Shown here piece after piece: positions 518-10,235 of a DNA stretch of 13,784 bases. The DNA comes from an uncultured Planctomycetota bacterium (GTDB lineage: Bacteria > Planctomycetota > Phycisphaerae > Sedimentisphaerales > Anaerobacaceae). How positions within the stretch are numbered: position 1 is the first letter of the stretch; each line of letters begins with the position of its first letter. The notes beneath the pieces were generated by a model. It saw only the letters and a program-made list of their open reading frames with translations. It searched no databases and was not told the DNA's origin. Position numbers and translations under genes: made by a program. The DNA lies in contig CAIYOL010000111.1 of the NCBI GenBank assembly GCA_903927855.1, positions 1 through 13,784 on the forward strand, written 5' to 3'.

Positions 518-1075
518 TTACGGCTCCTGCGATGCCGATTCTCTGAAGGGCATTCCAAAAAGTGCCAGCATCTTCTTTGCTTCTTCATCGGTATTGGCCG
601 TAGTTATAAAAGCTATGTTCATACCCTGCTGAAACTCTACCTTCGCAGGGTTAATTTCAGGAAAAATACTCTGTTCAGTCACTCCCATCGAGTAATTGCC
701 CCTGCCGTCAAAACTTTTTGGGCTAAGGCCCCGAAAATCTCTTACTCGCGGAATTGCAAGACTGATAAGTCTATCCATAAATTCATACATTCGCCCGTGA
801 CGGACAGTCACCTTCAAACCGATTTCGTTACCTTCACGAAGCTTAAAATTAGAGACGCTTTTTTTAGCTTTACATACGAGCGGCAACTGGCCGGTAATCA
901 TCATCAGGTCATTTTTGGCAAGTTCCAGAAATTTCTTGTCCTGCGTCGCTTTGCCCACTCCCATAGAAATAACAATCTTTTCCATCCGCGGCACAGCCAT
1001 AGGATTTTTGTAGTCAAACTCCTTTATCAACTCCGGAACTATCTTGGACTTATATAAATCCTTCAAACGTGCCAT
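518..1075 (-). CDS. rplE: 50S ribosomal protein L5
   Basis: L5 binds 5S rRNA and forms part of the central protuberance, bridging to the small-subunit head. The 185-residue product matches the family's usual ~180. Recognisable blocks are [16 protein letters not shown] at the N-terminus, [33 protein letters not shown], the core [20 protein letters not shown], and the C-terminal [20 protein letters not shown] stretch. The start was set at the ATG at 1075-1073, where homology begins, not at an in-frame codon 28 residues upstream that would lie inside rplX. With this start the spacer to rplX is 13 nt, and it consists of a CGAGATA heptamer pair whose last three bases are the start codon itself. 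Confidence 0.97.
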
Positions 1076-1086
1076 CTCGTATCTCG
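1073..1086 (-). repeat. CGAGATA/CGAGATG heptamer pair forming the rplE start region
   Basis: Two tandem units on the minus strand, CGAGATA then CGAGATG; the second ends with the rplE start codon. It fills almost the whole 13-nt rplX-rplE spacer and is the same unit as before rplC. Confidence 0.65.
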
Positions 1087-1088
1087 CT

Positions 1089-1427
1089 TTAGGCCTTCTT
1101 GGCCCTCTTAACAACGCTAATTTCGCTGCCATCGGCCGCAAGGCGTCTCTTGCTTCCATCGGCGTTTATCTGATAATGAACTCTGCTGCCTTTTGAGCTT
1201 TTTGGACTCAGAAGCAGGACATTACTCATATGAATAGGCTGCTCAACATCAATACGACCTCCATGCGGATTTTTTTGTGAAGGCCGAACGTGCTTTTTCG
1301 CCATATTGTGTCCCTGAACTACTACCTTATTCTTTTCCGGTATGACACGTAATATCTTGCCGGTAGCACCCTTATGGTCACCTGTTATAATCTCGACCAT
1401 ATCACCTTTTTTTATATGTAGGGCCAT
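1089..1427 (-). CDS. rplX: 50S ribosomal protein L24
   Basis: L24 binds 23S rRNA domain I, helps start 50S assembly and lies near the exit of the peptide tunnel. The 112-residue product has the KOW motif at the N-terminus ([20 protein letters not shown], residues 5-24), then [17 protein letters not shown] and the family block [17 protein letters not shown]. The tail ([19 protein letters not shown] onward) matches the normal VGYRFEEDGKKVRI region with a somewhat extended basic end. It lies 44 nt after rplN and 13 nt before rplE, as in the standard spc order. The leader contains GATACGA, a unit related to those ahead of rpsC and rplE; no strong Shine-Dalgarno is visible. Confidence 0.97.
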
Positions 1428-1471
1428 CTTTAAATTTCGTATCTATCTTTATAAGACAATAACCAATTTCT

Positions 1472-1858
1472 TCAGACTACCTCGCTTGCGAGTGAAATAA
1501 TTTTCATGTAATTTTTTTCACGAAGCTCACGAGCAACCGCGCCAAAAATCCTCGTCCCTATTGGATTGCCCTCATTATCAATCATAACAGCGGCATTGTG
1601 GTCGAATCTTACGTAGCTGCCGTCGGGGCGTTTCAAAGGATGCGTGGTTCGTATAACAACGCATTTATGCACTTTCTTATCATCCAGCTGACAGGTCGGA
1701 AGCGACTTTTTGATGGCAACACAGATAACATCGCCTACTCTGGCTACAGTGCGCCTGAACTTACCCCTTGACCCTCCTTTGCCAAGAACCCTGATGCACA
1801 TTGCCAACTTGACACCTGAGTTGTCTGCTACATCCAACATTGTTTCTTGCTGAATCAC
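1472..1858 (-). CDS. rplN: 50S ribosomal protein L14
   Basis: L14 binds 23S rRNA and forms intersubunit bridges with 16S helix 14, close to L19. The 128-residue product begins [20 protein letters not shown] and ends [11 protein letters not shown], matching family ends; it is about 5 residues longer than E. coli L14 (123) because of a small insertion, [10 protein letters not shown], after CIRVLG. The signature [15 protein letters not shown] and [15 protein letters not shown] are present. I chose the GTG at 1858-1856 because homology begins there; the frame runs 26 codons further upstream but those codons overlap rpsQ and look non-homologous. The 32-nt leader includes ACGAGAA followed by ACGGGAA, a purine-rich heptamer pair that may serve as the ribosome-binding region. 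Confidence 0.96.
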
Positions 1859-1863
1859 TTTAT

Positions 1864-1877
1864 TTCCCGTTTCTCGT
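1864..1877 (-). repeat. ACGAGAA/ACGGGAA heptamer pair in the rplN leader
   Basis: Two tandem 7-bp units on the minus strand differing at one base, placed 6-19 nt before the GTG start of rplN. ACGGGAA probably acts as a weak ribosome-binding site. Confidence 0.55.
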
Positions 1878-1890
1878 CGCTTCTCTGACG

Positions 1891-2154
1891 TTACTGCTGC
1901 TGAACCGCTTTTTCCAGAACCTTTACAAGACGCCAATTTTTAGTTTTGCTGTAGGGCCTGCACTCAACAGCCTCAACGACATCACCTACGCCTGCCTGAT
2001 TATGCTCATCATGGACAGCATACTTTGTCCTGCGCTTTATGTATTTGCCGTACTTCGGATGCTTAACCTTGAAATCAATGGCAATTTTGATGCTTTTATC
2101 ACCGCTATTACTTATCACCACGCCGGTTACAGTTTTTAATTTCTTATCCTGCAT
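1891..2154 (-). CDS. rpsQ: 30S ribosomal protein S17
   Basis: S17 is a primary 16S rRNA-binding OB-fold protein of the 30S body. With the ATG at 2154-2152 the product is 87 residues beginning [15 protein letters not shown], matching the start of the family (E. coli 84). Family signatures are [38 protein letters not shown] and [17 protein letters not shown]. An alternative ATG at 2190-2188 overlaps the rpmC stop (TAATG) and would add 12 residues containing CRSC; GAGG lies only 2 nt from it, too close for a normal Shine-Dalgarno. I prefer 2154 because homology starts there and the stretch between carries the heptamer pair TGGTAAT/TGGAAAA typical of spacers here. The start is less certain than the identity. 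Confidence 0.93.
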
Positions 2155-2159
2155 CTTCG

Positions 2160-2173
2160 TTTTCCAATTACCA
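2160..2173 (-). repeat. TGGTAAT/TGGAAAA heptamer pair before the preferred rpsQ start
   Basis: Two units on the minus strand; TGGTAAT is identical to a unit of the rplB array. This is one argument that the stretch 2155-2189 is spacer and not the beginning of S17. Confidence 0.45.
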
Positions 2174-2189
2174 CAACTGCGGCAAACCA

Positions 2190-2375
2190 TTACCTCTTTT
2201 CACGCATTATCGTTTTAATCCTAGCAATATCACGTCTGACATTAATTAAAGCTTTGGAATTCTCCAGCTTCTCCGTAACCGCCTGTGAGCGCAAATCAAA
2301 CAAATGCCTCTGCATCTCCTCAAGCTTGTCTTTAAGCTCTTCCGGATTCATTTCACGATACTGCTGGGCTTTCAT
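2190..2375 (-). CDS. rpmC: 50S ribosomal protein L29
   Basis: L29 is a small two-helix protein on the 50S surface beside the tunnel exit, next to L23, where nascent-chain factors dock. The 61-residue product has the expected hairpin of helices: [21 protein letters not shown], then a middle [29 protein letters not shown]; the block [14 protein letters not shown] corresponds to the family's [17 protein letters not shown]. Its ATG at 2375-2373 is preceded by AAGGAAA about 9 nt upstream, one of the better Shine-Dalgarno sites in the cluster. Its stop lies next to or inside the start region of rpsQ. Confidence 0.96.
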
Positions 2376-2421
2376 CTAACGCTTTCCTTTTACAAGGGCC
2401 GCTTACTGCAAAATGGCAACC

Positions 2422-2841
2422 CTACAATGAATGTCTTCGCTTAATAAACCTGCACTTAATCGGCATTTTATGAGCGACTCTGCTCAACGCCTGCTTTGCG
2501 ATATTCTCACCTACTCCACCGACTTCAAAGCAAACCTGCCCTGGTCTGACTCTGGCGACCCAAAACGCGGGCTCACCCTTACCTTTGCCCATTCGCGTCT
2601 CCAACGGCTTGGCACTTACAGGCTTATGTGGAAATATTCTAAGATAAACTTTGCCTTCGCGATGCAAGAAATGGGTTGCCGAAACTCGGCCTGCCTCAAT
2701 CTGCTTGGCACTTATCCAACAGGTTTCCATCGCCTGCAAACCGTATTCGCCAAACGCCACGAAATTGCATCGAGAGGCATTGCCCTTCATTTTGCCACGC
2801 TGGCTTTTACGGTATTTAACCCTTTTCGGCATCGTCGCCAT
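2422..2841 (-). CDS. rplP: 50S ribosomal protein L16
   Basis: L16 lies near the A-site tRNA elbow and is needed for late 50S maturation. The 139-residue product begins MATMPKRVKYRKSQRGKMKG; blocks FGEYGLQAMETCWISAKQIE and KPLETRMGKGKGEPAFWVARVRPG are diagnostic, the RMGKGKG stretch being the loop that reaches toward the peptidyl-transferase centre. The start at 2841 is preferred over a second Met three codons later because AAGGG lies about 10 nt upstream of it. It follows rpsC with a 30-nt spacer that is partly made of AT-rich heptamers. The C-terminus KCRFIKRRHSL is a little different from the usual KTTFVTR ending but of normal length. Confidence 0.97.
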   Translation of the reverse strand: MATMPKRVKYRKSQRGKMKGNASRCNFVAFGEYGLQAMETCWISAKQIEAGRVSATHFLHREGKVYLRIFPHKPVSAKPLETRMGKGKGEPAFWVARVRPGQVCFEVGGVGENIAKQALSRVAHKMPIKCRFIKRRHSL

Positions 2842-2860
2842 TTTTTCAGACCCTTGCGGA

Positions 2861-2888
2861 TTAACAATTGATTATTGATTATTAATTA
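2861..2888 (-). repeat. AT-rich tandem heptamers across the rpsC stop codon
   Basis: On the minus strand four consecutive 7-bp units can be read: TAATTAA, TAATCAA, TAATCAA and TTGTTAA. The rpsC TAA stop lies inside the array, so the last residues of S3 (VINNQ) are encoded by the repeat and the rest forms the spacer before rplP. This suggests that expansion or insertion of the repeat set the present end of the S3 reading frame. Period and copies are seen directly; origin is inference. Confidence 0.75.
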
Positions 2889-3705
2889 CTGGTTTCTCCG
2901 GGTTTTCTGTGTCCCTGGATTTCTCCTGGGTTGGTTCTTTCTTAGCTTCGGCAATACTTCCACCTTCCCGTGCCGTCGCAGTTCTAGTCCGTCTCCTGCC
3001 ACCATGGCCCGTATCATCTCGCCTCGGTGGACGACGCCGGCGAACACCCTGCTTAGGCTCAAGCTCCTCACCAAATTTGCCCTTATAAACCCAAACTTTG
3101 ATACCAATTGCTCCATATGTCGTCCTGGCTGTCGCCGTGGCGTAATCTACATCAGCATCCAAAGTCTGCAGCGGGATACTACCGAGTTTCTGCGTCTCCC
3201 TACGCGCTATCTCTGCGCCTGCCAACCGTCCCGAGCAGGCAACCTTAACTCCTTTAGCGCCGGCGTTCATCGCCGCTTCGCAAAATTCTTTCATCGCGCG
3301 CCTAAACGAAGCCCGCTTACTTAGTTGTTCAGCAATTGCTTCACCTATCAAAGCAGCATTAAGGTCAGGCTCTTTTATCTCGATAACATTAACGCTCATC
3401 TTCCGACCCGTAAGTCCCTCAAGCTCTTCCCGCAACTTATCAACCTCACCGCCTCTGGGACCAATAACTATACCGGGCCTGGCACTATGCAGTGTTACTT
3501 TCACTTCATTACGTGTTCGGACTATTTCAACTTTTGCCACTGCGCCCTTAGGCATCTGACGGTTAAATTTCTTGTCAATGTACTGGCGTATCTTCTGGTC
3601 CTCGACAAGAAAATCACCATAATCGCTCTTGGAAGCAAACCATGTGCTTTGCCATCCACGCGTTATTCCTGTTCTAAAACCTGTTGGCGATGTTTTCTGA
3701 CCCAT
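2872..3705 (-). CDS. rpsC: 30S ribosomal protein S3 with extended charged C-terminus
   Basis: S3 lies at the mRNA entry side of the 30S head and contributes to ribosomal helicase activity. From the ATG at 3705-3703 the product has 277 residues, against 233 in E. coli. It begins with the near-universal MGQKTSPTGFRTG; the KH domain has IVIGPRGGEVDKL at about 79-91 with its GxxG loop, and the C-terminal domain has CSGRLAGAEIARRE and TTYGAIGIKVWVYKG. From about residue 213 it continues as a low-complexity tail rich in Arg, then Glu, Lys and Thr, ending VINNQ inside a repeat. An upstream in-frame ATG at 3756 overlaps the rplV stop as ATGA, but its 17 extra residues are not homologous and are partly read from heptamer repeats, so it was not chosen. 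Confidence 0.96.
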   Translation of the reverse strand: MGQKTSPTGFRTGITRGWQSTWFASKSDYGDFLVEDQKIRQYIDKKFNRQMPKGAVAKVEIVRTRNEVKVTLHSARPGIVIGPRGGEVDKLREELEGLTGRKMSVNVIEIKEPDLNAALIGEAIAEQLSKRASFRRAMKEFCEAAMNAGAKGVKVACSGRLAGAEIARRETQKLGSIPLQTLDADVDYATATARTTYGAIGIKVWVYKGKFGEELEPKQGVRRRRPPRRDDTGHGGRRRTRTATAREGGSIAEAKKEPTQEKSRDTENPEKPVINNQ

Positions 3706-3733
3706 AATCTCGTATTTCGTATCCCGTCGTATC
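3703..3733 (-). repeat. GATACGA-type heptamers in the rpsC leader
   Basis: Read on the minus strand: GATACGA, three bases CGG, then GATACGA, AATACGA and GATTATG in tandem, the last unit containing the rpsC start codon. The region supplies the only purine-rich sequence (CGAGATT) near the start, so it probably doubles as the ribosome-binding region. Confidence 0.7.
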
Positions 3734-3752
3734 GCAGTTGGCGAGATACATT

Positions 3753-4310
3753 TCATACTCCCTTTGCTTCTGTTACTGTTATATGTATGTGACAGGCCTC
3801 TTTCCTGATAGAATACGCCTTGCCTCTATCTTTTGCTCTAAATCTCTTGGTGCCGATGCGCCACCCTGCGCCATCAACACGAGCCTCACTGACATAGAGA
3901 TTATCAACGTCAGCCTGCTGCTCATCGGCATCCGCCACGGCACTTTTTAGAACTTTGTCAACCATTTCTGCAGCTCGTTTTCTTGTGAACTTCAAAATAT
4001 CCATTGCGTCCTGAACTCTTCGGCCAGCTACCAACTGTGTAACCAATTTAACCTTACGAGCAGAACCCGGAGCATAGCGATAGGACGAACACCATTCAGC
4101 CAAATCATTTACCTCGACAGATAAGGCTGTCGCCAAACGGCGAATATCCTCTTTACGTGGTATAGGTTTAAAAAGACCTTTCTGCCAGTTTTTAACAGCC
4201 GCCGCTGCTTTTTCCTTGTTCAGTCCGCCTCCGACAAGCTGACCAGCTAACTGCTCTGTGCTCATCCGCTGCCGTTTGCAAAGCTTTTTAAACTTATTAG
4301 AACTTAACAT
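3753..4310 (-). CDS. rplV: 50S ribosomal protein L22 with N-terminal HTH-like domain
   Basis: L22 spans all 23S domains and its long hairpin lines the peptide exit tunnel. Residues 76-185 are the normal ~110-residue protein: SSYRYAPGSARKVKLVTQLV, VQDAMDILKFTRKRAAEMVDKVLKSA-type blocks, DVDNLYVSEARVD, and the hairpin region KRFRAKDRGKAYSIRK. Residues 1-75 are extra. They read like a lambda-repressor/XRE-type helix-turn-helix: FKKLCKRQRMSTEQLAGQL, a third helix ending VKNWQKGLFKPIP, and DIRRLATALSVEVNDLAEW. The ATG at 4310 gives a 27-nt spacer to rpsS, typical for this cluster; starting at the L22 core would leave about 250 nt empty, so the extension is probably translated. Whether the domain binds rRNA, DNA or nothing is unknown. 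The leader has CGAGATA just upstream. Confidence 0.95.
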   Translation of the reverse strand: MLSSNKFKKLCKRQRMSTEQLAGQLVGGGLNKEKAAAAVKNWQKGLFKPIPRKEDIRRLATALSVEVNDLAEWCSSYRYAPGSARKVKLVTQLVAGRRVQDAMDILKFTRKRAAEMVDKVLKSAVADADEQQADVDNLYVSEARVDGAGWRIGTKRFRAKDRGKAYSIRKEACHIHITVTEAKGV

Positions 4311-4337
4311 ATCTTATCTCGCTTCTACCCTGACGCT

Positions 4338-4631
4338 CTATTGCGTAGCAGGAGCAGTTGTTGTTTCTATCTTCCTGCTTGAATGACCTCTAAAAATCCT
4401 CGTCGGTGAAAATTCACCCAGTTTGTGACCAACCATATCCTCGGTAATAAAAACCTTATTAAAAATCTTGCCATTGTGAACCATAAAGGTAAAACCAACA
4501 AATTCGGGAATTATCGTGCATCTTCTCGCCCAGGTTTTTATCGGCTCACGAGAGCCGACTTCAATTCGCTTGTTGACCTTGGCAAAAAGCTTTTCATCGA
4601 CGTAAGGCCCTTTTTTAAAAGATCTTCCCAT
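4338..4631 (-). CDS. rpsS: 30S ribosomal protein S19
   Basis: S19 forms a complex with S13 in the 30S head and contacts the A-site side and L5 bridge. The 97-residue product matches the family throughout: [16 protein letters not shown], the central [20 protein letters not shown], and the C-terminal [16 protein letters not shown]. The last ~12 residues ([11 protein letters not shown]) are a Thr/Ala tail beyond the conserved part. The ATG at 4631-4629 follows a 43-nt spacer from rplB with AAGG and GAG upstream, though both lie somewhat far from the start. Confidence 0.97.
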
Positions 4632-4674
4632 TTGAATTCACTCGACCTTAAAACTTTAATTACCAATCATACAA

Positions 4675-5523
4675 TTACGCTACAAACTGAAAACGTCCGC
4701 TTTTTCGTCTTCGAATAATTCTTTTATTACTTGTCTTTCGCGGATTTCTGGTTTTTCCGCCCTTTGCCAGCACGCCCGTAGGTGAACATGGATGCCGTCC
4801 GCCATTTGCCCGGCCTTCGCCGCCACCCATCGGGTGAGAAACCGGATTCTGCGCCTTGCCTCTGACGTGAGGTCTGATACCCATATGCCGCATTCTTCCG
4901 GCCTTGCCTATTGTAACGTTCTGGTAGTCGGGGTTACTGAGCTGGCCAATTGTAGCCCTGCATTCTTTGCGAACCATCCGCATCTCGCCACTTGGTAAAC
5001 TAATGGTAACCCAATCACCTTCTTTCGCCACAATTTTTGCAGCACTGCCGGCGCTTCGGACTAACTTTCCGCCCTGGCCTGCGGTCATTTCAATGTTATG
5101 AATCTCAAGGCCAGCAGGAATTGCCGTCAGCGGCATCGCATTACCAATTTTAGGCTCACATTCAGAACCACTTTCCACGCGGTCGCCCAGCTTTATACCA
5201 AGCGGTGCCAATATATATCTTTTTTCACCGTCAGCATAGTGCAACAGTGATATGAAGCAATTTCTGTTAGGGTCGTATTCAATCGCTGCCACTTTTGCAG
5301 GAACACCATCTTTATCACGTTTAAAATCAATGAGACGGTAAATTTTTCTTGCCCCGCCGCCTCTGAACCGTACCATCGTCATCCCGCTACTGTTTCTGCC
5401 GCCCGCTTTTTTTATGCGAACACAAAGCGACTTGGCCGGCTTATCGGTAGTCAACTCGGCATAATCATTTACCGAACTGTTTCGACGTCCGGGCGATGTC
5501 GGCTTATAAATTCGAATACCCAT
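4675..5523 (-). CDS. rplB: 50S ribosomal protein L2 with altered PTC-loop motif
   Basis: L2 is a core 23S rRNA-binding protein needed for subunit joining, tRNA binding and peptidyl transfer. The 282-residue product begins [17 protein letters not shown] and contains [10 protein letters not shown], the EYDPNRN block, [31 protein letters not shown] and a C-terminal basic tail. The start at 5523 is well supported by GAGG six nt upstream; a GTG four codons earlier is rejected. Oddity: residues 227-238 read [12 protein letters not shown] where bacteria nearly always have PVDHPHGGGEGR. The key His is kept (H230), but Asp is Ser and the second His is Met. The GGGHKQ block near residue 55 is also changed, to GGGARK. 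The changes are in clean high-quality frame, not a frameshift artefact. Confidence 0.97.
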
Positions 5524-5535
5524 AACATACCTCAC

Positions 5536-5570
5536 ATTGGTAATTGGTAATTACCATTTACCAGTTACCA
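5536..5570 (-). repeat. Five exact heptamers forming a palindrome in the rplW-rplB spacer
   Basis: On the minus strand three direct 7-bp units (TGGTAAC, TGGTAAA, TGGTAAT) are followed by two inverted units (TACCAAT twice): 35 bp, exactly five times seven. The inner 26 bp form two 13-bp arms with a single mismatch, so the RNA could fold into a hairpin ending just before the rplB Shine-Dalgarno GAGG. It could affect translation of L2 or mRNA stability; that is inference. Confidence 0.8.
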
Positions 5571-5573
5571 AAA

Positions 5574-5855
5574 TTAAAACAAATCTATATGATAGTCCGG
5601 TTTCAAAAATACAACGGCTTTCTTCCAACTTGCTGTCGTACCGAAATTCCCGCCTTTGCGGCGGTATTTGCCTCTGTGGTTAGCCGTTCTTACCTTGCTC
5701 ACCTTAACATTGTATATTTTTTCAACGGCGTTCCTTATCTGGGTTTTATTAGCTCTTTTGTTCACCTCAAAAGAGTACGCACCTTTTACATTCGCAAAAT
5801 GCATCCCCTGCTCTGTAATCAAAGGCCGAATTATTATATTAAGGTTATTAAGCAT
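5574..5855 (-). CDS. rplW: 50S ribosomal protein L23
   Basis: L23 lies at the tunnel exit and is the docking site for trigger factor and signal recognition particle. The 93-residue product has the family layout: IIRPLITEQGMHFA at the N-terminus, YSFEVNKRANKTQIRNAVEKIYNVKV in the middle, then KYRRKGGNFGTTASWKKAVVFL, the long loop and final strand. Start ATG at 5855-5853, only 6 nt after the rplD stop, so translation is probably coupled; AACGGCGA is the only purine-rich sequence before the start. Confidence 0.96.
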   Translation of the reverse strand: MLNNLNIIIRPLITEQGMHFANVKGAYSFEVNKRANKTQIRNAVEKIYNVKVSKVRTANHRGKYRRKGGNFGTTASWKKAVVFLKPDYHIDLF

Positions 5856-5861
5856 TCGCCG

Positions 5862-6497
5862 TTAATTCTCGCTTTTCTGGTCTCTATTCAAGAGGGACAA
5901 AAATGCCTCTTTAGTAAACAGTATTTTGCGGTGGCTGCAAATATCACCGGCGTTTAATTCAGTCACAGGCATAACAACCACCCTCGGAATGTTCCTGGCC
6001 GATCTATAAATATTGCCGTCATAGCCGCTAATCGTCACCAGGCAACTGCGTTCGATTTTCAAATTACCCAAGACACTTGCAAAATCGCTGGTGTGCGGCT
6101 TCTCAAACTTCAGCTCATCAACCACCACTATATCCTTGCTCAAAAGCTTTGCCAAAATCGCAGAGTCTCTGGCCAATATCCTTTGTTTCTTAGGCATATT
6201 TTTGCTGAAATCCCTGGTGACCTTAGCAAAAGTAACGCCGCCGCCTACTCGCTTGCCCGTTCTCACCGTTCCCGCGCGGGCGTTTCCGGTGTGCTTTTGC
6301 GCATAAATTTTTCTTGTCGAGCCTTCGACCATCCCTCTGCTTTTTGTCGCGACTGTTCCCACGCGCTTGTTGGCATGGTACATAACTATTGCCTGCTTAA
6401 GCAGTGAATACCTAACTGAGCCTCCAAGAAGTGACTCGTCGACTTTTAAGACGTCAACTTCATTTCCTGCCCTGTTGTAAACAGACAAATCAATCAT
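5862..6497 (-). CDS. rplD: 50S ribosomal protein L4
   Basis: L4 binds 23S rRNA; its extended loop reaches into the exit tunnel opposite L22. In E. coli it also represses the S10 operon through the rpsJ leader. The 211-residue product is of normal length (~205). It contains YSLLKQAIVMYHANKRVGT, the loop GSTRKIYAQKHTGNARAGTV-type block with KRVGGGVTFA, and MPKKQRILARDSAILAKL; the C-terminal part ends in the fold's Rossmann-like strand VVVMPVTELN. Start ATG at 6497-6495, 25 nt after rplC, with GGAG and GAG upstream; the leader has loose 7-nt spacing of GAG/GAA motifs. Whether this L4 regulates the operon cannot be seen. Confidence 0.96.
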   Translation of the reverse strand: MIDLSVYNRAGNEVDVLKVDESLLGGSVRYSLLKQAIVMYHANKRVGTVATKSRGMVEGSTRKIYAQKHTGNARAGTVRTGKRVGGGVTFAKVTRDFSKNMPKKQRILARDSAILAKLLSKDIVVVDELKFEKPHTSDFASVLGNLKIERSCLVTISGYDGNIYRSARNIPRVVVMPVTELNAGDICSHRKILFTKEAFLSLLNRDQKSEN

Positions 6498-6522
6498 TTC
6501 TGAACTCTATTCTCCAAATATA

Positions 6523-7173
6523 TCAGGCCTCTTCTTGGGAACTGCGGACTATAACGTAACTCCCGGATGAACCTGGTACGCAACCTTTGATCATTAACAA
6601 ATTTCTCTCCTCATCTATTGCCACCAGGCTGTGGTTTTTTTCCGTCGCTCTGTGGTCGCCCATATGTCCCGCCATTCTCTTGCCCTTATGAAGATTGCCG
6701 CCGTGACCACGGTCGGTAGCATGACTGGCAATCGAACCGGGAGAACGATGCTTACGCTCGGTACCGTGAGAGTCCGGCATCCCATGAAAATCATGCCGTT
6801 TCATCACTCCGGCAAAGCCCTTACCCTTGCTCGTACCTACAATATCAACGAACTTCTCTTTGCCAAAGACTGAAACCGTAAGAGAGTCTCCCACTTTATA
6901 CCCCGGTTCGGTATCATTAGGCAGACGCATCTCTCCGACGAATCTCTTCGGTACTGAATTGGCTTTCTTAGCATGACCGAGCTGCGGATTCTTTATTCGC
7001 GATTTTTTTACATCGTCGTATCCCAGTTGAACAGCGTTATAACCGTCTGTATTTACAGTTTTGACCTGCATAACAATGCAGGGACCGGCTTGTATAACTG
7101 TAACAGGCAGCAGATTGGCCGCCTCGTCATACATCTGAGTCATCCCTATTTTTTTGCCCAGCAACATTGCCAT
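6523..7173 (-). CDS. rplC: 50S ribosomal protein L3
   Basis: L3 is an early assembly protein whose long internal loop approaches the peptidyl-transferase centre. The 216-residue product begins LLGKKIGMTQMYDE and has VTVIQAGPCIVMQVKT, DIVGTSKGKGFAGVMKRHDF, RSPGSI, KGKRMAGHMGD and ERNLLMIKGCVPG, all family blocks. Between PGSI and KGKRMAG it has 14 residues (149-162, Gly/His-rich) where E. coli and Thermus have 10. The Gln methylated by PrmB in E. coli L3 (GSIGQ) has no Gln counterpart here (GSIAS). Start ATG at 7173-7171, 18 nt after the rpsJ stop; the spacer is made of CGAGGTG and CGAGATA heptamers that include a GAGG. Confidence 0.97.
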   Translation of the reverse strand: MAMLLGKKIGMTQMYDEAANLLPVTVIQAGPCIVMQVKTVNTDGYNAVQLGYDDVKKSRIKNPQLGHAKKANSVPKRFVGEMRLPNDTEPGYKVGDSLTVSVFGKEKFVDIVGTSKGKGFAGVMKRHDFHGMPDSHGTERKHRSPGSIASHATDRGHGGNLHKGKRMAGHMGDHRATEKNHSLVAIDEERNLLMIKGCVPGSSGSYVIVRSSQEEA

Positions 7174-7194
7174 TATCTCGCACCTCGTATCTCA
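7174..7194 (-). repeat. CGAGRTR heptamers between rpsJ and rplC
   Basis: Three tandem 7-bp units on the minus strand: TGAGATA (beginning with the rpsJ TGA stop), CGAGGTG and CGAGATA, followed directly by the rplC ATG. The same unit, CGAGATA, recurs directly before rplE (1080-1086) and near the rplV start (4315-4321). The GAGG inside the array is the likely ribosome-binding site of rplC. Confidence 0.75.
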
Positions 7195-7506
7195 GGCTTT
7201 AATCTTCACAAAAACGCCGGCTGGTACCACCAAACGGTTCAACACCTCAACCGTTCGCGCGTTGGCTTCATGAATATCTATCAGACGTTTGTGAGTCCTC
7301 AGCTCAAACTGTTCACGCGACTTTTTATCAACATGGGGACTTCGCAAAACGGTGTATCTTTCAATCCGCGTAGGCAGCGGCACAGGACCGCTGACACGGG
7401 CATTGGTCCTCCTGGCGTGCTCTACTATCTCCTTGGCTGATGCATCAAGAGCCCTGGGGTCGTAAGATTCCATTTTAATTCTTATCTTTTCAGTTTCAGT
7501 AGGCAC
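7192..7506 (-). CDS. rpsJ: 30S ribosomal protein S10 (NusE)
   Basis: S10 sits in the 30S head and also acts as NusE, the partner of NusB in antitermination and of NusG in coupling. The 104-residue product has [14 protein letters not shown], the tip loop [20 protein letters not shown], the block [16 protein letters not shown] and the end [10 protein letters not shown], all as in the family. The start is GTG at 7506-7504, chosen because AGGAAGG lies about 7 nt upstream and homology begins soon after; the next Met, 11 codons in, would cut the first strand. It is the first gene after the 550-nt gap, with promoter candidates and hairpins upstream, so it likely opens the S10 transcription unit. Confidence 0.97.
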
Positions 7507-7548
7507 AGTTTTCCTTCCTGTTCACCTTCAGCGAAATCTCGCCCAAAA

Positions 7549-7568
7549 GCGGATTCCCAACAATCCGC
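7549..7568 (-). promoter_or_regulatory. Stem-loop in the rpsJ 5' leader
   Basis: GCGGATT and AATCCGC make a perfect 7-bp stem with a GTTGGG loop, followed on the minus strand by TTTT then GGG. About 45 nt before the rpsJ start, between the proximal promoter candidate and the ribosome-binding site. A second small hairpin, GCGA/TCGC, lies at 7531-7542. The short T run makes it a possible weak attenuator or an operator for autogenous control; no similarity to the E. coli L4-responsive leader can be claimed. Confidence 0.5.
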
Positions 7569-7613
7569 CTCTTCACTTCAAATTTCTAATCTGAAAACTT
7601 GCGAAAACTCAAA

Positions 7614-7641
7614 ATTATACATACTTACAAACAAATTGCAA
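7614..7641 (-). promoter_or_regulatory. Candidate sigma70-type promoter for the S10 operon (proximal)
   Basis: On the minus strand TTGCAA (7641-7636) and a perfect TATAAT (7619-7614) are separated by 16 nt. Transcription would start near 7607, giving a leader of about 100 nt before rpsJ. Context is right: AT-rich, in a gene-free gap, before the first gene of the cluster. The -35 matches TTGACA at four of six positions. Confidence 0.55.
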
Positions 7642-7978
7642 AACAATTATCTTCAGCTATTTTCAGCAAATAGCTTCTCTCTTTCACCAAACACATCTTG
7701 GTTTGATTTTGGCAGGAAAGGCATTTCTTATCGGACCGTCTTTAACTCTCGATGACTAAAAAACACGACACACAACCAATAAATTCGCCTTCCTTAAAGA
7801 ATTCGGGGCCTGACCATTTACGGCCATCCCAAAGCCGCTTATCAGCTTTGGCATACCCCTTAACCTAACAAAGTAATTAACAAACCGTCCTTGACCACTA
7901 CATTACAGATATGTAACAGCCCAACTCGTAAACGCAAAACCAATCCCTGGTCATGCTCGCTACGGCTGAAAAAACGCG

Positions 7979-8007
7979 ATATTACTACACAAATCTTTTT
8001 ATATCAA
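7979..8007 (-). promoter_or_regulatory. Candidate sigma70-type promoter after fusA (distal)
   Basis: On the minus strand TTGATA (8007-8002; five of six to TTGACA) is followed after exactly 17 nt by TAATAT (7984-7979; four of six to TATAAT). It lies just downstream of the fusA stop and hairpin. It could start a long leader for the S10 operon (about 465 nt) or a separate small transcript in the gap. Confidence 0.45.
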
Positions 8008-8018
8008 ACAAAATATTG

Positions 8019-8044
8019 AAAAAATTTTGCTAAAAACTGCAAAA
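8019..8044 (-). terminator. Weak terminator-like hairpin after fusA
   Basis: TTTTGC and GCAAAA form a 6-bp stem with an 8-nt loop, followed on the minus strand by six T. The stem has only two G-C pairs, so termination efficiency may be low. It starts about 12 nt after the fusA stop, the right place for the end of the str unit. Confidence 0.35.
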
Positions 8045-8056
8045 ATATATGCTTTC

Positions 8057-10141
8057 TTATAAAATAATCTCCTTGGCAATCTGCTCCGGCACCCTTTCAT
8101 AGCTTAACGGCTCCATCGTGAAGGTTCCTCGGCCGGCTGTGGCACTTCTAATTTCGCCGGAATACCCAAACATTTCTGCCAAGGGTACTTTAGCATCAAT
8201 TATCCGCATATTTCCATGCATACGGCAATCAGTAATTAAGCCCCTTTTCCCCAGCAAATTACCTTGTACTGCCCCAAAATTGGCCTCCGGCACCACTATT
8301 TGGAGCCGCATTATCGGTTCAAGTAAAACCGGTTCTGCCTCTTTACACGCCTTTTCCACCGCAATCTTGGCAGCCTGCTCAAAAGCCAAATCCGAAGAAT
8401 CCACCGAATGGAATGAGCCGTCAATAAGCGTAACCTTGATCCCCACAACAGGAAAACCGGCCAACACGCCGCTGCCCATAGCATCCTTCACCCCCCTTTC
8501 CACCGCGGGAACATACTCTTTCGGCACCGCATTGGAAACTATCTTGCTCACAAATTCAATGTCATGGCTCCAATGGCCGTCCTCTGTTAACAGCGGCTCA
8601 ACCACCAAAACCACATCTCCATACTGGCCGCGACCGCCTGTTTGACGCACAAACTTACCTTCCGCCTGAGATTTCCTGGTAATAGCTTCCTTATAGGCAA
8701 CCTTTGGCTTGCCAACTCTGACATGAACCCCCTTTTCCTTTACCAGTTTGTGCTGGAGTATCTCCAGGTGCAGTTCTCCCATACCGCTGATGATTGTCTG
8801 GCCTGTTTCGCTGTCTATTTTACACTCAAAAGTTGGGTCTTCACGTTTCAAATCCGCCAATGCCTCCACCAACTTAGCTGATTCTGTGCCGGCTTTGGGC
8901 TCTATTGACATACTAATAACCGTTTCCGGGAACGTAATGCTCGGTAAACAAACAGGACTTTTGGGGTCGCAAAGCGTATCACCGGTAAGCGTTTCCTTCA
9001 ACCCCACAACTGCGATAATATCACCGGCAACAGCCGAATCCAAAATTTTTCGCTCATCAGCGTGCATTTCGAATATTCTGGTAATATTCTCTTTTTTGTC
9101 GCGATTTACATTTAAAACCCTGGTGCCGGGTTTTAACTTCCCCTGATAAATCCTCAAAAAATTCAAATCGCCGTGCGAATCGGCGGTAATCTTAAATGCA
9201 AGAGCAACAAAGCTGGCATTGCGGTCGCATTTAATCGATATTTCTTTATCTTTGTCTTTACCTTTACCTCCCGCTTTGTGCACAACTATATCAGGCCTGT
9301 CCAGCGGCGAAGGCAAATACGCCACAACACCATCAAGCAGCTTTTGAATACCAATATATTTCAGGGCCGAACCGACAAATACCGGATGAAGTTTGTTGGC
9401 TATAGTTCCTTTTCTAATCGCTCTATTAATCATCTCGGTATCGACCGGCTTATCATGAACATAAGCATCCATCAACCCTTCATCGTATTCGGCTGCATGT
9501 TCAATCATATGTTTTCTGTATTGTTCCGCGGTTTTCAGCAAATCATCTGGAATTTCAGTTTCTTCAAAGGTCGCCCCTAATTCTTTGGTTTCGTAGAAGA
9601 CCGCCCGCATCTTTATAAGGTCTATTACCCCTTTAAAAGAATCTTCCGCTCCGATGGGAATCTGTACACAAACAGGATTGGCAAGGAGCTTTTCGCTAAT
9701 GCTTTTAACAGTCATCTCGAAGTCGGCGCCGACTTTGTCCATCTTATTCACGAAGCAAAGACAGGAAAGAGCATATTTTTGTCCCTGTCTCCAGACAGTC
9801 TCACTTTGAGCCTGAACACCTTCACTACCGTCAAATACGGCTACAGTGCCATCGAGAACGCGCAGAGACCGTTCGACCTCAGCGGTAAAATCAATGTGCC
9901 CCGGCGTATCGATAAGATTAATCTCAAAACCCTCCCATGGACATTTCGTTGCGGCGCTGGTTATAGTAATGCCCCTTCTTTGCTCCTCTTCCAAATAATC
10001 CATGACGGCGGTACCGTCGTGGACTTCCCCCATCTTGTAGGTTTTTCCTGTATAATAGAGTATGCGCTCGGTTACCGTCGTCTTGCCGGCATCGATATGA
10101 GCCATGATTCCGATATTACGTAATTGTTTCAATTTGTCCAT
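8057..10141 (-). CDS. fusA: Translation elongation factor G
   Basis: EF-G is the GTPase that drives ribosome translocation. The 694-residue product has all five domains. GTPase motifs: AHIDAGKT (14-21), switch I RGITIT (56-61), DTPGH (78-82), NKMD (132-135). Domain [14 protein letters not shown] (451-461). Domain IV: GGRGQYG (502-508), and the tip loop FHSVDSS keeps the His equivalent to E. coli His583. Domain V has LLEPIM and the [11 protein letters not shown] block. KREDPTF with [11 protein letters not shown] resembles spd-type and mitochondrial EF-G. A Lys/Gly-rich stretch at 290-300 interrupts domain II. The start is the ATG at 10141; there is no strong Shine-Dalgarno, and a perfect 16-bp palindrome lies just upstream. 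Position after rpsL-rpsG makes it the main fusA, though paralogues may exist elsewhere. Confidence 0.97.
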
Positions 10142-10155
10142 TGTTCATTACCGAA

Positions 10156-10171
10156 AGTTCATCGATGAACT
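10156..10171. promoter_or_regulatory. Perfect 16-bp palindrome before fusA
   Basis: AGTTCATCGATGAACT is a perfect inverted repeat, 14 nt before the fusA ATG. As RNA it gives a 6-bp stem with a UCGA loop. A second ATGAAC (minus strand, 10148-10143) directly before the start could pair with the same GTTCAT arm, so two mutually exclusive folds are possible, one of which covers the initiation region. It could also be a dimeric protein site on DNA; no family is recognised. Confidence 0.45.
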
Positions 10172-10182
10172 ACAAAGAAGTT

Positions 10183-10223
10183 AAAAAAATAGCGGACAAG
10201 AAAAATTATACCCTATCCGCTAT
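10183..10223 (-). terminator. Hairpin with T-run between rpsG and fusA
   Basis: ATAGCGGA (10223-10216) and TCCGCTAT (10196-10189) form a perfect 8-bp stem with a 19-nt loop, followed on the minus strand by six T (10188-10183): the layout of an intrinsic terminator or attenuator. The left arm belongs to the heptamer array. The loop contains TATAAT (10210-10205) but no fitting -35. If active, it would lower fusA expression relative to rpsL-rpsG. Confidence 0.5.
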
Positions 10224-10235
10224 CTGCTATACCCT
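10208..10235 (-). repeat. Four tandem heptamers between rpsG and fusA
   Basis: On the minus strand: AGGGTAT, AGCAGAT, AGCGGAT, AGGGTAT, all of the form AGNNNAT, 28 bp with exact period 7. The third unit supplies the left arm of the T-run hairpin. Same period as the arrays found in the S10-spc spacers, with a different unit sequence. Confidence 0.75.

Follow-up and report, generated by a model that had tools for sequence, protein, structure and literature searches.

The window analyzed here is a whole contig of 13,784 nucleotides (contig C111 of genome G000, an assembly of 2.05 Mb in 417 contigs that is 89.96% complete) from an uncultured planctomycete, and it carries a long run of ribosomal-protein genes. 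Spacers between these genes hold tandem arrays that share a repeat period of exactly 7 bp, although the unit differs from array to array. We consider it probable that a 7-bp duplication process keeps making such arrays, and that the family to which the window belongs (labelled f1) has recruited one unit, ATACGAG (equivalent to CGAGATA), as a translation leader that acts independently of a Shine-Dalgarno (SD) sequence.

The genes used are all on the minus strand and, with names read from their translations, comprise part of rpoC, rpsL, rpsG, fusA, rpsJ, rplC, rplD, rplW, rplB, rpsS, rplV, rpsC, rplP, rpmC, rpsQ, rplN, rplX, rplE, rpsN and part of rpsH; open reading frames (ORFs) were called mechanically rather than by a gene finder. 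The spacers that are 8 nt or longer, 18 in number (1,271 nt in total, with 10 nt of flank added to each), were compared with 300 dinucleotide shuffles. Identity at lag 7 is 0.324 versus 0.277 in the shuffles (z 4.31), whereas lags 5, 6, 8 and 9 yield z values of -0.19, -0.16, -1.31 and -1.85. Lag 14 gives 2.45, lag 10 gives 1.17, and the remaining lags from 4 to 13 fall between -1.85 and 0.52. Seven period-7 arrays reach a score of at least 6 versus a shuffle mean of 0.49, a count matched in none of the 300 shuffles, and periods 5, 6, 8 and 9 produce no array at this score. Three arrays appear at period 10 (matched in 9/300 shuffles), three at period 14 (8/300), two at period 12 (40/300) and one each at periods 4, 11 and 13. 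No lag-7 excess was found in the coding DNA of the window. The period-7 signal in the window's spacers is real, and among periods 5 to 9 the excess lies at 7 only.

An earlier note on this DNA had proposed that the period holds whatever the unit, and this is borne out by the fact that only lag 7 stands out strongly and by the differing units of the arrays. Six of the eight sites it named give an array score of at least 5, and those at rpsQ and rplC fall below the cut. Its suggestion that an array can contain a start codon is confirmed at rplE. Its two unit families were too few, as evident from the 46 canonical units found among 95 distinct arrays of the window and its relatives. The sites in the window are as follows.

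1073..1086, minus strand: rplE leader CGAGATA CGAGATG, with the start codon in the second unit; the array at 1074-1086 passes the cut.
1425..1447, minus strand: start region of rplX, where ATACGAA occurs once (GATAGATACGAAATTTAAAGATG); weak, no array.
1863..1877, minus strand: ACGAGAA ACGGGAA upstream of rplN, which has a GTG start; score only 5.
2160..2173, minus strand: TGGTAAT TGGAAAA upstream of rpsQ; below the array cut.
2865..2886, minus strand: TAATCAA array spanning the rpsC stop codon; scored array 2867-2881.
3703..3733, minus strand: rpsC leader GATACGA CGG GATACGA AATACGA GATT-ATG; scored array 3710-3722.
3740..3749, minus strand: antisense copy GTATCTCGCC located 5′ of the rpsC leader, forming a hairpin arm; present in G002 too.
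4308..4323, minus strand: rplV start region AGCGAGATAAGATATG, with one leader-like copy.
5536..5571, minus strand: two mutually inverted arrays upstream of rplB, TGGTAAC TGGTAAA TGGTAAT and TACCAAT TACCAAT; scored 5536-5570.
7171..7193, minus strand: rplC leader GAGATAC GAGGTGC GAGATAATG, with diverged units, one of which includes an SD-like GAGGT; below the cut.
10134..10149, minus strand: AATGAAC AATGGAC where fusA starts, a weak array of score 6 that the earlier note did not list.
10208..10235, minus strand: AGGGTAT AGCAGAT AGCGGAT AGGGTAT located 3′ of rpsG; scored array 10213-10230.

The rplC units (CGAGGTG/CGAGATA) are too diverged to pass the array cut, and the leader form is nevertheless present. 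In G002, a genome from the window's genus, the rplE leader is 1 nt shorter and its last unit is altered.

Evidence for a leader comes mainly from relatives, which were fetched with RplV from metagenome assemblies of Phycisphaerae, Phycisphaerales, Sedimentisphaerales and Planctomycetota. A weight matrix built from 72 leaders (36 genomes, 12 spacers), which were anchored on GAGAT at -14..-12, gives the form ATACGAGATACGARAT(T)-ATG with copies that fade upstream. Four tandem copies of ATACGNN occur in 47 of the 89 family genomes and the reversed pattern has no matches; G000, G001 and G002 are among the 42 family genomes lacking this four-copy form, and a phylum-wide draw yields it in 3 of 392 genomes. 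The pattern GAGATACGARA-N1/2-ATG has 225 matches in 56 of the 89 family genomes, versus 9 for its reversal. None of the listed matches lies in the window's contig and only two lie elsewhere in G000, in which the perfect 14-mer CGAGATACGAGATA was not found. The leader is largely a trait of the family: 30 of 133 family starts follow a leader-like word, compared with 2 of 54 when other families of the order are sampled and 6 of 125 when other orders of the class are.

The leader is strongly biased to one strand. Within 40 nt upstream of genes in the 55 RplV loci, ATACGNNATACG occurs 32 times in the sense and once in the antisense orientation. Elsewhere the sense to antisense counts are 4:0 in G024, 3:0 in G015 and 0:0 in both G031 and G002, with matches inside called ORFs omitted (5/13, 7/15, 3/3 and 3/3, respectively). 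In a set of 761 ribosomal-protein gene starts from 58 loci, in which only spacers of at least 20 nt were counted, one of the words ACGAGA, CGAGAT, GAGATA or ATACGA lies in positions -20..-1 at 177 starts; ten shuffles give 7 to 23, and the antisense words give 0. Among other units, the ATTGA class near starts is 4:2 sense to antisense, and the TGGTAAT class, in the arrays seen, occupies both strands, with TTACC near starts once sense and once antisense in the RplV loci and 2 and 0 times in G002. Recruitment of the repeats as translation leaders, which the earlier note had suggested for the arrays at large, is therefore retained for the ATACG class, which is sense, start-anchored and mostly free of an SD, and is not supported for the TGGTAAT class.

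The position of the leader is also constrained. In 26 of the 41 spacers with ATACGNNATACG, the final ATACG stops 4 or 5 nt short of the start codon. The 210 GAGAT matches in the last 44 nt begin at -12/-13 in 80 cases, at -5/-6 in 28, at -19/-20 in 15 and at -26 in 8. Once duplicate spacers are removed, two of the seven possible phases relative to the start account for 85 of 117 GAGAT matches, and for 21 of the 31 beyond position 18; ATACG is more loosely phased (70/129 in its two best phases). A looser leader word also stands before unlike genes outside the ribosomal operon (eight in G024, one in G015 and one in G002). Judged from their sequences, the products of these genes look like phosphotransferase system (PTS) enzyme I, an ABC transporter, iron-sulfur proteins, an IscU-like protein and MraY, and their starts are predicted ones.

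Genes with the leader tend to lack an SD, called in these spacer counts as four letters of AGGAGGT. Such a call was made in 5 of 36 genes with a ATACGNNATACG array versus 327 of 725 without (P = 2e-4, with related rows), and within the 20 array-bearing genomes the contrast is 5/36 versus 94/240 (P = 0.003, likewise with related rows). Across 52 loci with at least eight starts, the leader fraction and the SD fraction are inversely correlated (Spearman -0.56). At the starts compared between lineages above, SD words stand before 45 of 133 within the family, 32 of 54 for the other families of its order and 77 of 125 for other orders.

Arrays and leaders both turn over. Gain or loss of whole 7-bp units, as the earlier note had expected, is seen between some close species in four clean cases: the window versus G002 in rplW-rplB (7 nt, one unit fewer in G002), L009 versus L011 in rplN-rplX (7 nt), L002 versus L004 in rplX-rplE (21 nt) and L003 versus L006 in rplV-rpsC (21 nt). 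Base-by-base conservation without unit gain or loss is therefore not what is seen. In 13 close pairs chosen by hand, 4 of the 14 gaps within arrays are multiples of 7, versus 17 of 192 elsewhere. On a quick tree of the 58 loci, each spacer shows a minimum of 2 to 14 changes in leader presence, summing to at least 105 over 13 spacers; unsure branches, here 18 of the 55 inner ones, inflate such counts. This number of state changes indicates that the leader is not one inherited copy per gene. The leader word is present in the spacer position of the window's rpsC leader in 29 of 57 loci, once each in rplP-rpmC (1/50) and rpmC-rpsQ (1/49), and never in fusA-rpsJ (0/48), rplE-rpsN (0/50) or rpsC-rplP (0/54).

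The 7-bp habit is more pronounced in some relatives than in the window's genus. Among non-coding arrays that score at least 9 in the 55 RplV loci, 49 have period 7 and 47 have period 14, whereas every other period between 4 and 15 has 6 or fewer; 18 of these loci supply the arrays. The base composition of the 95 distinct arrays is A 0.374, T 0.303, G 0.171 and C 0.151. A 324-kb sample of G024 (20 stretches) holds 33, 28 and 17 arrays at periods 7, 14 and 21, versus at most 6 at other periods from 4 to 20, and its lag-7 identity is 0.298 versus 0.272 at lags 6 and 8. Two of these 20 stretches (C36 and C89, which supply 4 of the 33 arrays) and 9 of the 20 for G015 were chosen at sites of known matches, which could bias the counts. 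Small rplB loci were compared as raw counts of period-7 arrays scoring at least 9, unadjusted for base composition. The family has 7 such arrays across 4,999 nt of non-coding DNA (4/22 loci), other families of the order have 1 across 1,836 nt (9 loci) and other orders of the class have 7 across 7,150 nt (4/24 loci). In other classes of the phylum there are none in 9,553 nt (29 loci), not even at a score of 7. The arrays of other orders are built of other units, for example GATTGCG, ACGGACA and TTTGCGA, and thus the 7-bp habit is wider than the window's family in the sampled loci, with the unit going with the lineage.

Two further observations concern arrays in relatives. Long ATACGNN arrays lie at contig ends in L202 (G015:C147), where the order of variant units repeats after 84 nt, and in G011:C481, so that such arrays may break assemblies and be under-counted. 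The rplX-rplE spacers of L009, L011 and L018 are hairpin-like and flanked by TTGGTG and a repeated TAACCAGT, with a period that by eye is 8 rather than 7.

Several results weigh against our interpretation. The window's own genus is poor in arrays: 400 kb of G002 contain 7 period-7 arrays (versus 0, 1, 2 and 2 at periods 5, 6, 8 and 9, and 6 at period 10) with almost no excess at lag 7 (0.268 versus 0.265 and 0.266 at lags 6 and 8), and 76 kb of G000 contain a single one. A strong genome-wide claim for this genus was dropped on these weak statistics, and the description of the repeat as dispersed and expanding, taken from the earlier note, applies to relatives such as G024 and not to the window's own genome and genus with their few arrays. 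The strand count for the 55 loci omits 11 of 46 ATACG matches, those that lie within called ORFs. The GTGAA class near starts is 7:1 sense to antisense, and sense bias is therefore not unique to ATACG. Ten of the 14 in-array gaps have lengths other than multiples of 7, several of them in badly aligned spacers (rpsG-fusA of L003/L006, and L020/L056), and two looser indel spectra have no peak at 7, one made with lax gap costs and the other from the 25 pairs ranked highest for ungapped identity, several of which are not close. Since the rows of the SD contrasts are related, their P values overstate the effect. Finally, in four genome-wide samples a canonical SD precedes 44-52% of starts and a leader-like word 0-4.5%.

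The strongest competitor, which we judge unlikely, is that the arrays are neutral products of 7-bp slippage and that the leader is a functionless old unit near starts that has been copied along. Non-leader arrays of many units exist on both strands, and the densities of ATACG arrays and of other arrays correlate across loci (Spearman 0.59), both of which are expected from such a process. However, it fits poorly with the near absence of antisense copies near starts (32:1; 177 versus 0), the fixed distance of the last unit from the start codon (4 or 5 nt in 26/41), the inverse relation to the SD and the at least 105 state changes over 13 spacers.

We also considered whether the leader is an SD in disguise, in which GAGAU acts as a weak SD that has been multiplied by the repeat. 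The GAGAT peak at -12/-13 coincides with the register of GAGGT in an SD, and the rplC copy in the window holds GAGGT itself. Pairing with the 16S ribosomal RNA tail, which is an ordinary CCTCC in the two genomes examined (G001, L215; G037, L218), argues otherwise: the mean duplex energy of the leaders is -4.5 kcal/mol (n = 72), weaker than the -5.8 of their own shuffles, versus -7.3 for SD genes and -5.1 for genes with neither signal. GAGG in the SD register is not enriched either (10/124 versus 1/44, 4/39 and 2/22). Because its pairing falls below that of shuffles and GAGG is unenriched, the leader does not appear to be an SD in disguise, although it sits in the SD register, and we regard this explanation as improbable. 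Pairing of the leader with other 16S stretches (217, 217, 1,147 and 1,558 nt) was tried and rejected: its best value was -14.0, while reversing the leader gave -14.1 to -14.8. Leaderless -10 promoters were considered by eye and likewise set aside. Compared with their shuffles, leader regions are slightly more open (unpaired 0.577 versus 0.550; SD genes 0.522 versus 0.524, with genes carrying both signals counted as SD).

Fold-back structure around the arrays bears on the two remaining alternatives. In 13 of 231 spacers, including the rpsC spacer of the window, the sense leader has an antisense copy on its 5′ side, versus 0 to 6 in ten shuffles. The rplB spacer of the window is a palindrome of arrays, a shape kept in G002 and, by eye, in G001. 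Such hairpin partners, together with a repeated, strand-specific word upstream of unlike genes, could indicate that a regulator acts jointly on many mRNAs and binds the repeats cooperatively; but gain and loss gene by gene is a poor fit to a regulon and most leaders are short, making this an option to which we give little credence. Least plausible of all is a small mobile or dispersed element with heptamer-array ends, for although the same ATACG unit occurs at many loci and, among the 7 pairs of arrays no more than 150 bp apart, 5 are more alike in inverted than in direct orientation (the other 2 tie), the changes in close pairs affect units within one spacer and the units differ between sites.

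The mechanism we favor has a mutational and a selective layer. Short non-coding stretches would be duplicated in exact 7-bp steps, with a constant step and a unit that varies by locus and lineage, and the units would then mutate. Slippage is the presumed cause, inverted array pairs may arise by template switching at hairpins, and the 7-nt loops of either process may be too long for efficient mismatch repair. Sense ATACGAG copies that happen to lie just 5′ of a start codon would then be kept as leaders, often where an SD is absent, and would be read by something besides the anti-SD sequence, such as ribosomal protein S1 or another RNA-binding factor. Alternatively, the leader may act as an unstructured, purine-rich landing site. 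A bolder version, which we offer tentatively, is that a second, SD-independent initiation signal has evolved from the heptamer ATACGAG, recognized by a factor with 7-nt spacing and gained or lost gene by gene as 7-bp duplications yield copies, such that a replication bias supplies the raw material for ribosome-binding sites. The case as a whole joins two open questions, namely why mid-length tandem repeats of bacteria are often exactly 7 bp and how genes without an SD start. With a defined leader unit, phase, clade and differences in unit number, both halves are testable.

Some spacers of the window have features of their own. The TAATCAA array at the rpsC stop differs in G002 and G001, such that the end of S3 and its stop codon are placed differently within the repeat. 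Inspected by eye, the rpsG-fusA array (AGGGTAT/AGCGGAT) folds with 10183-10196 and supplies the 5′ arm of a hairpin resembling a terminator; this hairpin (10183-10235, minus strand) ends in a T run (TCCGCTATTTTTTT) and has similar counterparts in G002 and G001. In the fusA-rpsJ spacer (7507-8056, minus strand), a long stretch is conserved across the spacers of 48 loci, with a promoter-like TTGACA..TGATAA followed by CAGCCGTAGCGAGCA..GGGCTG and then by a GGAAGGC/GCCTTTCC pairing whose loop holds heptamer fold-back arrays in some relatives. RNAalifold predicts only 19 pairs in this spacer, 3 of them with two-sided change, and an Rfam search of the window gave no match at E <= 0.5. The conserved stretch is perhaps an S10-operon leader RNA of the f1 family.

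Heptamer repeats are known from other bacteria, and the open-access literature, which leaves subscription journals mostly uncovered, yielded nothing on heptamer repeats or such a leader in planctomycetes; no paper joined heptanucleotide, tandem repeat and planctomycet, or sedimentisphaer and Shine-Dalgarno. The short tandemly repeated repetitive (STRR) sequences of heterocystous cyanobacteria have 7-bp units, several unit sequences and degenerate positions, and leader use is not known to be part of their description. The arrays of the window's family share these traits and differ in their units. Three Calothrix heptanucleotides are mentioned in the available text of PMC4692102, which describes the GGGAATC and GGGGA(C/T)T heptamers of Xanthomonas and Nostoc as having fixed and free positions, as mostly intergenic and near the ends of 5′-neighbouring ORFs, and as G-rich with G-quadruplex potential. 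Judged by that text, 7-bp units, inverted pairs (convergent in those genomes) and length variation between close species are shared with our arrays, whereas here the units are A/T- or A/G-rich and the leader is anchored at start codons. A unit of the G-quadruplex type was not seen, with no GGG in the listed units and an array G fraction of 0.171. Causes for the 7-bp step and for escape from mismatch repair are offered by a polymerase-footprint idea quoted in PMC4692102 and by the survey of Mrazek and Huang (2014, PMC4060949), whose accessible parts report that longer simple sequence repeats are over-represented in prokaryotes and that mismatch-repair efficiency drops with loop length; both remain at survey level, with Phycisphaerae unmentioned in these parts.

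By analogy, the closest precedent of the ATACGAG leader is the TAACTGA repeat of Beggiatoaceae. As far as the available text of MacGregor (2015, PMC4679880) goes, it forms exact 7-bp tandem units of 2-6 copies in about 169 sets, some of them in ribosomal-protein operons, which lie mostly forward just before start codons and about 10% of which accompany an SD. Its translational role is a proposal there, similar heptamers are rarely or never repeated, and the same options are listed for what might recognize such a landing site, the ribosome or a factor. The ATACGAG leader likewise lies forward and just upstream of starts (32:1; 26/41 at 4-5 nt) with an SD rarely beside it (5/36 versus 327/725). 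It differs in its unit and phylum, in the many other units that are repeated alongside it, in a period-7 habit that extends across the sampled class and in a phase lock to the start over several units. TAACTGA is not among 45 of the 46 canonical units (95 arrays) and is neither a rotation nor a complement of ATACGAG, and so the leader of the window's family works like TAACTGA but is another repeat. TAACTGA thereby gains a counterpart in another phylum, and because that counterpart has a different unit, the likeness suggests convergence, not the transfer of a single sequence.

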